A DNA stretch of 21,642 nt from a virus, in IMG/VR virus record IMGVR_UViG_3300032271_000759, positions 1 through 21,642 of that record. One strand, 5' to 3'. Numbering within the stretch: position 1 is the first letter of the stretch; the number at the start of each line of letters is the position of its first letter. The translations under genes and the position numbers were made by a program. Below the pieces are notes generated by a model. It saw only the letters and a list, made by a program, of their open reading frames with translations, made no database searches and was not told where the DNA came from. Shown one piece after another: positions 2,899 through 6,856 of this stretch.

Positions 2899-3387
2899 TT
2901 ATAGTGAAATCACTTTGATCGGCGGGCGGGCGTGAGTTGTGTGGTTCACCACAGCCTTGATGACTGTCTCCATTCGGACTTTGGAATTGATGGTGATGTT
3001 GCCTTCCAAAGCAAACAGGGCTGACAAAGCAGATTGCGCACCGGCTCCAACTGCGCCGTAGTTCTCTTTTGATTTCACCACTGCAAAGTCTGAACCGATT
3101 TCATAGATGCCCGCTTTTGTTGCCACAAGTACAGACCACTCATCGTTTGGAAAGCCAGCCTCACTCGTCTTGCTGATAAGAAAGTCACGAATTTTGTGGG
3201 GGTCAGAAATGCCAGAGTTGCGGAGCAAATCCATAATGCGAAACGAACCGGAAACCCCAACGAGGCTCCCTTGTGTTTTCCAAACCTTTGGCTCTGCTGA
3301 AATAACCACCGTCGAGTCGTCAAAAGCGCCACTATCGCCAGCAATCCACACCTGCTTCTTGTCTTTCCATGCGGCTATGACGGTCAT
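2899..3387 (-). CDS. HslV/proteasome-beta-like Ntn hydrolase (threonine peptidase fold)
   Basis: 162 residues beginning Met-Thr-Val-Ile-Ala-Ala-Trp. If the initiator Met is removed, Thr becomes residue 1 and the conserved positions fall exactly as in proteasome beta subunits and HslV: T1, D17 (IAGDSGA) and K33 (EPKVW). A GVSGS turn follows at about 43-47, and a GAGAQSALSAL segment in the second half resembles the HslV 'GSGGxxA' region. HslV is about 175 residues and works as a double hexamer with the HslU unfoldase. No unfoldase or partner is visible here, and there is no propeptide. Cleavage of a host or phage protein, or self-assembly during morphogenesis, is inferred only. The start follows TAGCAT-GGGGTT-ATG, a leaderless-type arrangement with no Shine-Dalgarno sequence. 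Confidence 0.8.
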   Translation of the reverse strand: MTVIAAWKDKKQVWIAGDSGAFDDSTVVISAEPKVWKTQGSLVGVSGSFRIMDLLRNSGISDPHKIRDFLISKTSEAGFPNDEWSVLVATKAGIYEIGSDFAVVKSKENYGAVGAGAQSALSALFALEGNITINSKVRMETVIKAVVNHTTHARPPIKVISL

Positions 3388-3412: not shown

Positions 3413-4108
3413 TTAGCCCTTGGTCTGCCAAGAGGCCCAATGGAATGGGCTTTTTTCCTCTTCGGGGCGGTCTTCTGTGTAGTAGTAGAGGGCTAGTGAA
3501 AACCGCTTGCGGTTGGGCGGGCAGGCCAATGGTTCGGGCACACCGTGAAACGAAGTATCCGTAGTGCCGAATACCGCTAGCCGGTTGAGAATGGGGTCTA
3601 CGGTCTTTGCTGGGCGAGCCAAGTTATCCTTGTCGTAGAGTTCCAACTGTCCGTTCCACTCGGGTCGCCAGCCGCCATTGAGGAACAATAGGGCGTTGAC
3701 ACGGCGGTGAAGACCCGTCTCGGGATGAATGTTGAAGTCGGCGTGAATGTCCAACTTTCCACCTGTCATCGTGACATGAACGCCCCCACCAAGGTATGAC
3801 GGGTCGGCAATCAGGTTGGGAATTCCCGTCAGTTCCGAAAAAAAATCCAATGCGAGTTGCTGATTTAGTTCCCACAAAGCCATAGCCACATTCTCGGGCA
3901 AGTGGTTTAAGTCGGAGTTCCAAAACTTGTTGACCTGAAACTGAGACACATTGGGGTCGTAACTCCAATTGCTGAGGTCAGTTTCTTCAAGGGTTGCTGA
4001 AATGTCTGACGCCTCCACAAGGAAATCATCAATGATGAGGTGTGGGAATGGTTTGGCGTCTTTGTATTGCTCGTGAAGAGCAACGGGGTCAAGGTTCTCG
4101 TTAATCAT
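3413..4108 (-). CDS. 2-oxoglutarate/Fe(II) oxygenase, prolyl-hydroxylase-like
   Basis: 231 residues from ATG 4108. The jelly-roll signature is complete: H122-x-D124 (LDIHADFN), distal H188 (TSFHGVPE) and a 2-oxoglutarate-binding R202 (KRFSLALYYYT). The intervening motifs (HRRVNALLFLN, NRLAVFGTTD) are those of the P4Hc-type family. Such enzymes use 2-oxoglutarate, O2 and Fe(II) to hydroxylate a protein or small molecule. The substrate cannot be told from sequence. The ATG is 4 nt after the stop of the upstream gene (TAGTGAAATG), suggesting translational coupling. A longer frame to 4192 exists but would overlap the upstream gene, and its extra N-terminus does not resemble the family. Confidence 0.85.
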   Translation of the reverse strand: MINENLDPVALHEQYKDAKPFPHLIIDDFLVEASDISATLEETDLSNWSYDPNVSQFQVNKFWNSDLNHLPENVAMALWELNQQLALDFFSELTGIPNLIADPSYLGGGVHVTMTGGKLDIHADFNIHPETGLHRRVNALLFLNGGWRPEWNGQLELYDKDNLARPAKTVDPILNRLAVFGTTDTSFHGVPEPLACPPNRKRFSLALYYYTEDRPEEEKSPFHWASWQTKG

Positions 4109-4112
4109 TTCA

Positions 4113-4328
4113 CTACCCGTTCTCTTGGAGATGTTGCTGGATGGCTGCGTCGGCCTGACCCTGTTCAAAAAACCGGATTGGTTCCCAGCCACAGGAGCAA
4201 CTTGCCTCGAAGAGGGTGGTGTTGAATACCTTGGACTTGTATTCGCCTGTGGTGATTTCGTGTTCTGCGTTGCCGGATTGGGCCTTCTTGCGGGCCACTA
4301 AACGCCGTGCCTCTTGAACAGAACCCAT
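4113..4328 (-). CDS. small CxCGW protein, unknown function
   Basis: 71 residues. A basic N-terminus (ARRLVARKKA) is followed by a central segment with C44-x-C46-G-W and a C-terminal helix holding H66 (AAIQQH). Short actinophage proteins often carry this CxCGW ... A ... H arrangement, which may bind a metal, but there are only two Cys and the function is unknown. The ATG at 4328 overlaps the end of the upstream gene by 31 nt and has no clear Shine-Dalgarno sequence. A GTG at the upstream stop codon (TAGTG, about 4299) is an alternative start and would still contain the Cys motif. The next gene starts 4 nt after its stop. Confidence 0.6.
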   Translation of the reverse strand: MGSVQEARRLVARKKAQSGNAEHEITTGEYKSKVFNTTLFEASCSCGWEPIRFFEQGQADAAIQQHLQENG

Positions 4329-4633
4329 ACGGGGCCGTTTGTTGATTCCTCGATAATCCACTGGTCGTAACACCTATTGCGCTCGTGGTAAGCGTGGCAC
4401 TCGTAAATGGTTCCTACGGGCAGACTTTTGGAATCTGGCTTTATGCAATTTTGGGGGGTGTAGATGATTTCACCACGAAAGGCGATGATTTGCTCCACCA
4501 TTTTGTCTTGGTCTTCCAACATTTCGGGCCAGACAACTTCCCAAGGCTTGTCTCGGTTGTTTTTGTTCCACTTGTTGATGTATTGCTGACGCTCTGTGTT
4601 GCTTAATGCAACTGGCTTTTCTTTTCGGAACAT
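4298..4633 (-). CDS. hypothetical protein
   Basis: 111 residues, not recognised. The N-terminal third is a polar, charged helix (NTERQQYINKWNKNNRDK). The rest is predicted beta-rich, with GEIIYTPQN, GTIYECHAYH and WIIEEST...VWVLFK strands and two Cys. It could be a small beta-barrel binding domain, but nothing specific supports that. The start has a GGTGGA Shine-Dalgarno-like sequence 5 nt before the ATG. The 79-base gap upstream (4634-4712) contains no gene; a TACGGT box there might be a -10, without a good -35. Confidence 0.6.
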   Translation of the reverse strand: MFRKEKPVALSNTERQQYINKWNKNNRDKPWEVVWPEMLEDQDKMVEQIIAFRGEIIYTPQNCIKPDSKSLPVGTIYECHAYHERNRCYDQWIIEESTNGPVWVLFKRHGV

Positions 4634-4712: not shown

Positions 4713-5144
4713 TTACTGCGTGACGAGGATGTCGGGCAGTTGGAGCGGAGTTACATTTGGAGCCGGTGGCTGGATTTCAGCATGAAAACCCGCTTGTTCC
4801 AAAGTGTTTTTGTATTCGGAAAGTTTGGCTTCTGCTTGGCTTCGCTCTTCGGGGGTGAACTCATGGGCATAGGTGACGCCACGCAAAGTGTGTTCAACGG
4901 TGGTTTTTCCACCATGGTTGTTGACCTTGAATCCGCCCGACTGCCAGTGACGACTGACTCGGCGGCTCTTGGGGCCAACAGACTGTTCGTGACCAGCACG
5001 ACCAAGCGCCCACCCCACTCGGGTATGTAATGGGAACCTGCTTTCACCATTGGATTCGTATTGGTTGCCATGAAACGAATGACCGGGCACATCTCCCTTG
5101 GTTATGGGATAAAGCAACTCGTTGGTGGAAAAGCCGGAAGACAT
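4713..5144 (-). CDS. GHxFxGNQ-motif protein (motif near N-terminus)
   Basis: 143 residues, not assigned to a known enzyme. The striking element is PGHSFHGNQY at residues 20-29, nearly the same as the C-terminal tail of the protein encoded two genes upstream. A GRAGHEQSVGPKSRR stretch with several His and basic residues follows. A charged helix (TPEERSQAEAKLSEYKNTLEQAG) and a Pro-rich tail complete the protein. To my knowledge GHxFxGNQ peptides recur in phage virion-associated proteins without an agreed function. The ATG at 5144 overlaps the upstream TGA (TGATG) with GGAG just before it, so the gene is coupled to the papain-like hydrolase gene. A GTG one codon earlier is possible. Confidence 0.7.
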   Translation of the reverse strand: MSSGFSTNELLYPITKGDVPGHSFHGNQYESNGESRFPLHTRVGWALGRAGHEQSVGPKSRRVSRHWQSGGFKVNNHGGKTTVEHTLRGVTYAHEFTPEERSQAEAKLSEYKNTLEQAGFHAEIQPPAPNVTPLQLPDILVTQ

Positions 5145-5689
5145 CACTCCACAATCCCCATGTAAATCTGAAGGCTGGTGGGAGACACCATGTAGATGTC
5201 AGGCGTGTCGTAGTAGATTCCAGCAAAACGCATGGCTTCGTGAGCCAACGCTGAGCAAATCCAAGTTCCTTCACGGCGACACTCAAAGAACCACGCAGGG
5301 GTCAAGATGTCTACAGCGATGCAGATGTCGGAGAGAATGCCGTATTTCTTGCCTTCTTGCTTTTCAGCAAAGAACGCCGCCTTTTCGGGGTCGCCACCCA
5401 AAGGTGTGATGTCATACATGGAGACAGCCGTGGAGCGGTTGATGAGGCTTGCCAGCGTTGTTCTTTCAGCACCGGCAGACAGGGCTTGGATAATCAAAAT
5501 GTCTTCGTAGGTTTCACCTTCGGAGATGACGGTGAAGCAGTGGTTGTACTTGTTCTTGCGCCAGCGAATCCACTCGCCAAAACGAATGACATAACCCATG
5601 AAACTTTTGGTGCGGGCAAATCCTGTCATGCCTCGCTTGATTTCACTGGGGGCAAGTTGCGTGATGCACGCTGGTTTGATTTTTTTCAT
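5144..5689 (-). CDS. permuted papain-like hydrolase (YiiX/NlpC-P60 superfamily)
   Basis: 181 residues. The order of catalytic motifs is that of circularly permuted NlpC/P60 enzymes: a His in a hydrophobic strand first (NHCFTVI, H50), a GxKY motif in the middle (EGKKYGILSD, about 112-121) and the Cys last (TWICSALAHEAMRF, C145) at the start of a helix. A G-rich segment before the His (RGMTGFARTKSFMGYVIRFG) is also typical. Members are amidases or thioesterases that act on cell-wall peptides, lipids or proteins. No signal peptide or wall-binding domain is seen. The gene overlaps its neighbours by 1 nt at both ends (TGATG), and both neighbours carry a GHxFxGNQ motif, so the three products probably work together. 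A lysis, entry or virion-maturation role is speculation. Confidence 0.7.
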   Translation of the reverse strand: MKKIKPACITQLAPSEIKRGMTGFARTKSFMGYVIRFGEWIRWRKNKYNHCFTVISEGETYEDILIIQALSAGAERTTLASLINRSTAVSMYDITPLGGDPEKAAFFAEKQEGKKYGILSDICIAVDILTPAWFFECRREGTWICSALAHEAMRFAGIYYDTPDIYMVSPTSLQIYMGIVE

Positions 5690-6318
5690 CAGTTTCCTGC
5701 GACGTGCTGGTTGCCGTAAAACGGGTGTCCCGGCTGAGCGCCGACTGTTCCGGTTCCCTTTGGAACAGAAACCCCAGCACTAGCCATCTGAGCCTCACGG
5801 CTTGCTGGCACTTTGAAACGCTCTTGTAGGTTTTTACCAATTTCTTTAAGATTGCTCTGTTCGTTCTTAATTTTTTCTACGGTTTTTTGCGCTTGTTGGG
5901 TGTGGTGTTCTGCCAAAAGGGAATGAACTTTGCTACCAAGCCCACCACCTGCTTTGGAGGCGTGGTTATTGGCTGCCTCAATGTGGTTTTGAAGTGAGCC
6001 TTTTAGAGATTGAATAGTGCGAACCGAGTTATCGTGAAAGTTTTTGAGTTCGCTTTGGGTGGCGAGGCGAGCGTGTGCGCCCACTCCGGCCCCCAAGGGG
6101 CTTTGTACGGTTATACCGTTTGGGTACGACTTTAGTTCCGAGTCAACCTTGCTGTTGTAAGCCTTTACCTCATCGCCCATTGCGCTAGTACCAGCGGCAC
6201 CGGCAACCGCAGCAGCGCCCTTTTTCACCTCAGCGTAGATACCTTGACCAGCGAGAAGTTCGTCGGGGTAGTTGCTGAGGGATTTCACTAAGTTGTGCGT
6301 TTCAAATCCTGAGTCCAT
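5689..6318 (-). CDS. helical protein with C-terminal GHxFxGNQ motif
   Basis: 209 residues, no recognised family. An Ala/Gly-rich segment (residues 33-46) could insert in or cross a membrane but is short. Residues about 90-170 are long, charged, Gln/His/Lys-rich helices that look like a coiled coil. A Pro/Gly/Val-rich linker leads to the extreme C-terminus PGHPFYGNQHVAGN. The nine-residue motif (197-205) matches the N-terminal motif of the protein encoded at 4713-5144. The start has no Shine-Dalgarno sequence but follows TAATAT-TTATTC-ATG, a leaderless-type spacing. The gene opens a three-gene coupled unit. A virion-associated or scaffold-like role is a guess. Confidence 0.7.
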   Translation of the reverse strand: MDSGFETHNLVKSLSNYPDELLAGQGIYAEVKKGAAAVAGAAGTSAMGDEVKAYNSKVDSELKSYPNGITVQSPLGAGVGAHARLATQSELKNFHDNSVRTIQSLKGSLQNHIEAANNHASKAGGGLGSKVHSLLAEHHTQQAQKTVEKIKNEQSNLKEIGKNLQERFKVPASREAQMASAGVSVPKGTGTVGAQPGHPFYGNQHVAGN

Positions 6319-6334
6319 GAATAAATATTAGACC

Positions 6335-6856
6335 CTAATCCCAAGAATGTTTGGTGAACCCTAATGAGTAGGCTTTTGATGGGTTGTCTTCTATCCAGCC
6401 ATTGAGCCAGTCGCAGATGGTGATAATGCCGTCCATATCGGTCAGGTTTTTGTCGCTCTGGCCTGAGCGTGAACGGCTGAGGATTTCGTGCCCGTGGATT
6501 CCACCAAAGCACCTGTGAGGCATGATGTCTTGACCCATGCACTTCCAAGTCTCACGCTTTCCGAACTTGGCAAGCATGGCTTCTTGGCGTTGCTGATTGA
6601 CGGTTTTACGCTTCTCGGACATAGGGTTCATCCGTGTGCGTTTCAGCACTGATGGCTTCCGTGCCATTGGCTTGCGTGCGAGGGATTTGGCTGGCTTTGC
6701 TCGCTGACGCTCTTGTGCCTCTTTGCGCTTGGTCTGCTCTTTGGCGTAACGACACGCTTGGCATTGAGGTAGAAACTTCTCTGGCTTATCCTTGCGTGAA
6801 ATGAAATCGGTGATGGGCAATATTTCCCGACATGACCCACACCGTTTCGTTTCCAT
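6335..6856 (-). CDS. HNH-type endonuclease with N-terminal zinc ribbon
   Basis: 173 residues. The N-terminus has two CxxC pairs (C6/C9 and C32/C35) forming a likely zinc ribbon. A very basic linker (45-85) could contact DNA. The C-terminal half has the HNH pattern HGHEILSRSRSG (H122/H124), N138-L, ITIC (C149) and WLNGWIEDNP (N153), followed by A..LGF, as in phage HNH enzymes where a final His is often Asn. C107 and C117 may form part of a structural zinc site. A role in DNA cleavage is expected, either homing-type or in recombination/packaging; it is far from any terminase in this window. A promoter (TTTACA-18-TATGGT) lies exactly 6 nt before the ATG. Confidence 0.7.
   Translation of the reverse strand: METKRCGSCREILPITDFISRKDKPEKFLPQCQACRYAKEQTKRKEAQERQRAKPAKSLARKPMARKPSVLKRTRMNPMSEKRKTVNQQRQEAMLAKFGKRETWKCMGQDIMPHRCFGGIHGHEILSRSRSGQSDKNLTDMDGIITICDWLNGWIEDNPSKAYSLGFTKHSWD

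Follow-up and report, generated by a model that had tools for sequence, protein, structure and literature searches.

Why should two genes on either side of a predicted hydrolase gene both encode the motif GHxFxGNQ? The window, a 21.6-kb viral record (21,642 nt) taken over its whole length, contains three genes on the minus strand, gA (5689..6318, 209 aa), gB (5144..5689, 181 aa) and gC (4713..5144, 143 aa from the ATG at 5144), of which gA and gC are the motif-bearing open reading frames and gB encodes a predicted hydrolase with a permuted papain-like fold (YaeF/YiiX, C92-like). As described in the initial annotation of this DNA, the genes overlap by 1 nt at both joints, where the stop codon TGA and the following ATG have one base in common (TGATG, at 5689 and 5144). 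The two motifs are real, with two matches in the window and none in 100 shuffles, and the DNA behind them is indeed similar, the corresponding 24-mers being identical at 18 of 24 bases (counted by hand).

The protein gA consists of an N-terminal leader (MDSGFETHNLVKSLSNYPDELLAGQGIYAEVKKG, 6217..6318), a helical body and a C-terminal tag (VGAQPGHPFYGNQHVAGN, 5692..5745, with the core GHPFYGNQ at 5707-5730) that ends at the gA stop; leaders of the SNYP and GQGIY types also precede the tag in other proteins. Read from the ATG at 5144, gC begins MSSGFSTNELLYPITKGDVPGHSFHGNQYES, and an alternative GTG start at 5147, one codon earlier, would give 144 aa. Its LLYP-type leader (MSSGFSTNELLYPIT, 5100..5144) is present in 19 tag proteins and is followed by an N-terminal tag (KGDVPGHSFHGNQY, 5058..5099, core GHSFHGNQ at 5061-5084) and an orphan body. 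Thus, gA does end with PGHPFYGNQH, as originally read, whereas the motif of gC, which had been placed at the very start of the protein, lies 20 residues in, behind a conserved leader. That gA bears an N-terminal leader of the same kind had gone unremarked.

The genes belong to a conserved block which, in the relatives compared, runs in the order HNH, gA when present, gB, two small genes, zero to four tag genes, and an HslV-like gene. In the window, the HNH/endonuclease VII-like gene (6335..6856, minus strand, PHROG matches) lies upstream of gA; in relatives, it is syntenic and lies upstream of gA or gB. The two small minus-strand genes are located at 4298..4633 (found after gB in relatives, with homologs adjoining gB in L036, L089, L083, L058 and L035) and at 4113..4373 (homologs adjoining gB in L082, L058, L036, L083 and L089), and the block is closed by the HslV-like Ntn-hydrolase gene (2899..3387, minus strand; phrog_1040, E=8.5e-15), also syntenic in relatives. 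The slot that holds tag genes in relatives is occupied in the window by a 2OG-Fe(II) oxygenase gene (3413-4192; PF13640, E 4e-15). We considered this oxygenase as a modifier of the tag and dropped it, no homolog being present among the relatives compared.

A search of viral contigs for GHPFxGNQ yielded at least 119 stretches, and the flanking context read from their translations shows that GHxFxGNQ is the core of a tag of about 20 residues, [VIL]xKGDxxGH[PE]F[RH]GNQ[YW]TxG, followed by a Gly-rich linker. The matches listed comprise 285 unique copies of the tag. At the positions of G, H, F, G, N and Q, the full range of synonymous codons occurs, which indicates selection on the protein rather than the DNA and rules out a DNA-level element such as a repeat or a recombination site. 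Among the matches listed, the flanking tag residues are present in 92% of those from viruses versus 6% of those from bacterial genomes, and the reversed pattern does not occur in 29 whole records that carry up to 25 tags each; these contrasts, together with the shuffles, rule out a chance origin. The records with tags were chosen for carrying the motif and so give no estimate of its frequency across phages. The position of the tag in the protein varies, with N-terminal, internal and C-terminal copies, the last being conserved and lying only 2-6 residues from the stop. A variant, KGGPGSGAQPGHPFxGNQ, in which KGGPGSG stands in place of KGD, was observed in six loci (L017, L051, L076, L083, L085 and L087). 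A profile of the tag matched no chain in the PDB, and string searches of the literature, which are blind to degenerate motifs and to subscription papers, found no description of it; the tag is widespread in phages and apparently undescribed. Other short motifs recur in phages as well, namely HDQxxHG (20 matches, reversed 0; L016, L050, L116 and others), QPRxxxGxF/W (11 matches, reversed 0) and GHAGRPG (3 matches, reversed 0), and these are possibly parallel tag families.

The bodies to which the tag is attached are highly diverse. Homologs of gA in four loci (L272, L270, L279 and L036) share 37-55% identity with it overall and retain GHPFYGNQH unchanged; in the AF2 model of gA, the helical body is confident and both ends, with pLDDT below 50, are modelled as disordered. 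The body of gC is found again in L030, as one of the modules of a 1091-aa ORF with four tags (E=5e-15). Neither gA nor gC has a Pfam or NCBIfam family above cut-off, and neither protein, used whole in tblastn against INPHARED, gave a match. N-terminal tags are usually preceded by a leader of 15-25 residues, of the LLYP, SNYP, EILK or EIxxW type in the relatives of the window, and the bodies of the 64 proteins that follow this leader and tag scheme form 33 clusters between which no similarity was detected. In internal copies, the leader is lost and the tag kept; up to seven tags occur in one ORF of about 2,000 aa, at domain boundaries, and tags are also found after XkdF, MuF and portal domains. 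Judging by their sequences, gA and gC belong to an extensive, modular group of phage proteins that have a portable peptide in common.

Pfam domains detected in 91 carriers include Phage_Mu_F (6), ADPrib_exo_Tox (4), ART-PolyVal (3), XkdF (3), Portal_Mu (2), Zeta toxin (2), topoisomerase IB (2), GNAT (2) and PBECR1 (1), along with a Mu-I-like protease, kinase-like and pentapeptide domains; nucleases are also among the carriers, and the PHROGs families represented are head maturation protease, minor head protein and portal. The single true tag among the INPHARED tblastn matches is in the 'internal head protein' of Xanthomonas phage Rb1 (PQ569993), which contains InPase and DarA_N domains, that is, domains of the type found in polyvalent, probably injected proteins (PMC5512222). 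Two bacterial contigs, from Ideonella livida (L188:55-1272) and Rhodocyclaceae (L219:2-2773), encode Rb1-like proteins with DGDF[PK]GHPFRGNQYRKA followed by an Ala/His-rich helical stretch; these contigs are possibly prophages or phage-plasmids.

The tags are concentrated among head genes. In 17 of the 21 records where a portal, MuF or XkdF gene could be placed, such a gene has a tag at most 2 kb away (6.4 expected by rotation; 0 of 5000 rotations as high), and in the 11 records where both the portal and the phrog_1005 major capsid gene were located, 68 of 74 tags fall between the two (26.4 expected; 0 of 20,000 rotations as high). For instance, in the 85-kb G009, which is related to the window phage, the order is portal, XkdF-containing protein, fifteen tags, scaffold and capsid protein. 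A Dps/ferritin-like gene (L134:8139-8600) is located amid the tag genes of G009, between the protease and the scaffold and capsid genes, suggesting a packaged DNA-protecting protein. In G001, which has 25 tags, one tag is on a 1065-aa coiled-coil protein (L348:3244-6441) encoded directly upstream of a putative capsid gene (phrog_13692); this protein looks like a scaffold. The head proteins themselves vary among tag-bearing phages: the portals belong to phrog_113, phrog_776 or phrog_145, and the capsid protein is of the phrog_1005 type in 15 of 29 records, with a phrog_13692 protein at the major capsid position in G001, phrog_1014 annotated as the major capsid protein in Xanthomonas phage Rb1, and the PF05065 capsid present in only 2 of 37 records. 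The tag, by comparison, is nearly invariant.

The explanation that we favor, and to which we would give about an even chance, is that the tag serves as a peptide for docking or loading proteins that reside inside the head and are probably ejected. During head assembly, leader and tag would bring in proteins without other relationship to one another, both structural ones (MuF, portal, maturation protease) and effector-like ones (ADP-ribosyltransferase, Zeta toxin, nuclease, acetyltransferase, pentapeptide repeats), and this cargo would be held in the head and probably ejected together with the DNA. The position independence of the tag, the linker, the repeats, the types of carriers and the gene location all agree with such a function. 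The initial suggestion that the motif acts as a tag or docking peptide, as opposed to a substrate of the hydrolase, is supported by its portability, conservation at the protein level and concentration in head modules. We infer from these patterns the virion location, the binding partner, docking and ejection, as well as any role of gB. Several observations speak against docking: a near-invariant tag across differing portals and capsids would be odd if its reader were a head protein, given how fast these evolve; simple targeting would require neither the repeats at the inner boundaries of multi-domain proteins nor the tags on the portal and the protease themselves; and a similar motif, GHPFFGNQYT, occurs also in flavobacterial chromosomal proteins.

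Among known systems, the tag most likely works like a capsid-targeting signal of the T4/P1 kind, as judged by analogy. The capsid targeting sequence of phage T4 (IPI-III, Alt) is likewise a short peptide, found at the N-terminus of proteins that are unrelated in other respects and that are packaged and ejected, and ADP-ribosyltransferases are found both in that cargo and among the tag carriers; the tag, too, occurs near the N-terminus of unrelated proteins (33 clusters in 64 proteins) and in a head-gene setting (68 of 74). However, the two sequences differ, and the tag is also internal or C-terminal, repeated, and common to many unrelated phages. In phage P1, the 30 N-terminal residues of DarB are enough to bring a reporter into the capsid, and the same study reports no N-terminal consensus common to the Dar proteins (PMC9024508). 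The Rb1 tag protein shares the DarA_N domain with this system, but the tag has a strong consensus. Like polyvalent proteins and MuF polymorphic toxins, tag carriers include multi-domain predicted injected effectors, with ART, PBECR, InPase, MuF and portal fusions, and effector domains (ART-PolyVal, ADPrib_exo_Tox, PBECR1, Zeta toxin) are fused to, or encoded beside, head proteins; unlike them, many tag carriers are small single-domain proteins. The string GNQ had no text match in the paper on polyvalent proteins or in that on MuF polymorphic toxins. Encapsulin cargo-loading peptides are short terminal peptides on a flexible linker that bring cargo, including ferritin-like proteins, to a shell of the HK97 fold. 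By analogy, the tag resembles them in being a short peptide, terminal in many carriers, with a flexible linker, a shell of this fold and a ferritin-like gene nearby, but differs in sequence, in its phage setting, and in its repeated and internal copies.

What, then, is the part of the hydrolase? The permuted His50/Cys145 signature originally recognized in gB (minus-strand codons CAC at 5540-5542 and TGC at 5255-5257) holds up, with N49-H50 and C145 invariant in eight homologs. A search of viral contigs with the single gB sequence gave no match, whereas a profile search did find homologs; tblastn against INPHARED returned weak matches to Streptomyces-phage peptidases. The match to phrog_1128 is significant (E=3e-13), and that to PF05708 (E=0.011, 16.3 bits) is under the gathering cut-off of 27. 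The closest structures to the AF2 model of gB (pLDDT 80.6) are 3kw0 (Z 14.3 over 154 residues) and YiiX, 2if6 (Z 12.5 over 135 residues), followed by the PLAAT/H-REV107 group with Z near 9. The model thus suggests that gB resembles YaeF/YiiX (Peptidase C92) in fold and His-then-Cys order but, given the score under the Pfam cut-off, is only a distant relative.

That gB acts on the tag, with gA, gB and gC forming a dedicated enzyme-substrate unit, appears very unlikely to us, translational coupling of the trio notwithstanding. The initial annotation had pointed to a pairing of the motif with the hydrolase; among 33 records with tags, no gB was detectable in 22, some of them with as many as 25 and 18 tags, and 18 of 25 gB records carry no tag, a distribution that this annotation itself had named as speaking against specificity and that rules out the pairing as a general rule. 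A weak local linkage is retained, as tags do cluster beside gB where both occur: in 15 of 16 non-redundant gB loci containing tags, the closest one is no more than 1 kb away from gB (null mean 6.9; 0 of 20,000), and the median distance is less striking, with 1104 of 20,000 random placements as small. Of the trio as a unit, the gA-gB junction stands, with gA adjoining gB at nearly equal spacing in L270, L279 and L036 and lying nearby in L299, but the immediate gB-gC junction was observed in the window alone; the downstream tag genes of relatives come after two further small genes past gB, before the HslV-like gene. In keeping with docking, the phrog_1005 capsid is found in 6 of 7 gB records with tags versus 0 of 18 without, a result weakened by the tag-less records being mostly shorter, so that head genes may be missing. 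The association with the hydrolase is secondary: gB is most likely neither reader nor cutter of the tag and most likely is a predicted hydrolase of the same accessory block as the tag genes, perhaps itself virion cargo.

Cleavage of the tag by a prohead protease, which would separate effector domains, or detach them from a part anchored in the capsid, ahead of ejection, ranks second after docking and in itself seems unlikely. It would account for the tags at domain boundaries and after XkdF, MuF and portal domains and for the internal copies that lost the leader and kept the tag, and it has a precedent in P1 DdrB, which is reportedly processed before packaging (PMC5512222). We disfavor it because a cut in the conserved C-terminal copies would achieve little and because unrelated maturation proteases (XkdF, Mu-I-like, S78) accompany the same motif; about 13 constrained positions would also be long for a cleavage site. 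Still less probable is that the tag simply serves as a flexible connector, or is left over from gene fusion, having spread through the shuffling of modules and lacking a partner of its own. The Gly-rich linker, the shuffled bodies behind common leaders, the fusion of the gC body within a multi-tag ORF and the modelled disorder of the gA leader and tag would fit such an origin, but the invariant G, H, F, G, N and Q, despite free synonymous change, and the conserved C-termini indicate sequence-specific selection. That the tag is nearly invariant in phages whose portals and capsid proteins differ would allow for a partner not tied to one head family, and the tag might accordingly bind nucleic acid packaged in the head, other tags or a conserved factor of the host, which we consider, if anything, a little less probable again. 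Tag-like GHPFFGNQYT in RGG-rich flavobacterial proteins also points this way, but the tag is not strongly basic, and its strong concentration between portal and MCP genes indicates head assembly. The flavobacterial proteins are chromosomally encoded, RGG-rich, acidic and of low complexity, with EGHPFFGNQYTSG-like motifs (L181:1464-2324; also L186, L201 and L269); three of them have NQxRDSQGRF repeats beside the motif, and they lie outside recognizable phage genes.

If the tag, as under the docking explanation, marks virion cargo, a search for the motif would list candidate head-internal or ejected proteins in many uncultured phages, mostly of unknown function, and the tag would offer a signal that could be transferred to other proteins so as to load them into phage heads. 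Two odd motifs in one fragment would in this way lead to a testable general rule for the assembly of injected phage proteins. A further possibility, about as unlikely in our estimate as protease cleavage, is a peptide code for virion cargo common to unrelated tailed phages, in which a single near-invariant tag, placed on structural as well as effector proteins and often present many times per virion, would have a conserved non-capsid partner (packaged DNA, tag-tag contacts or a host factor); adding the tag would then let phages exchange effector modules freely.
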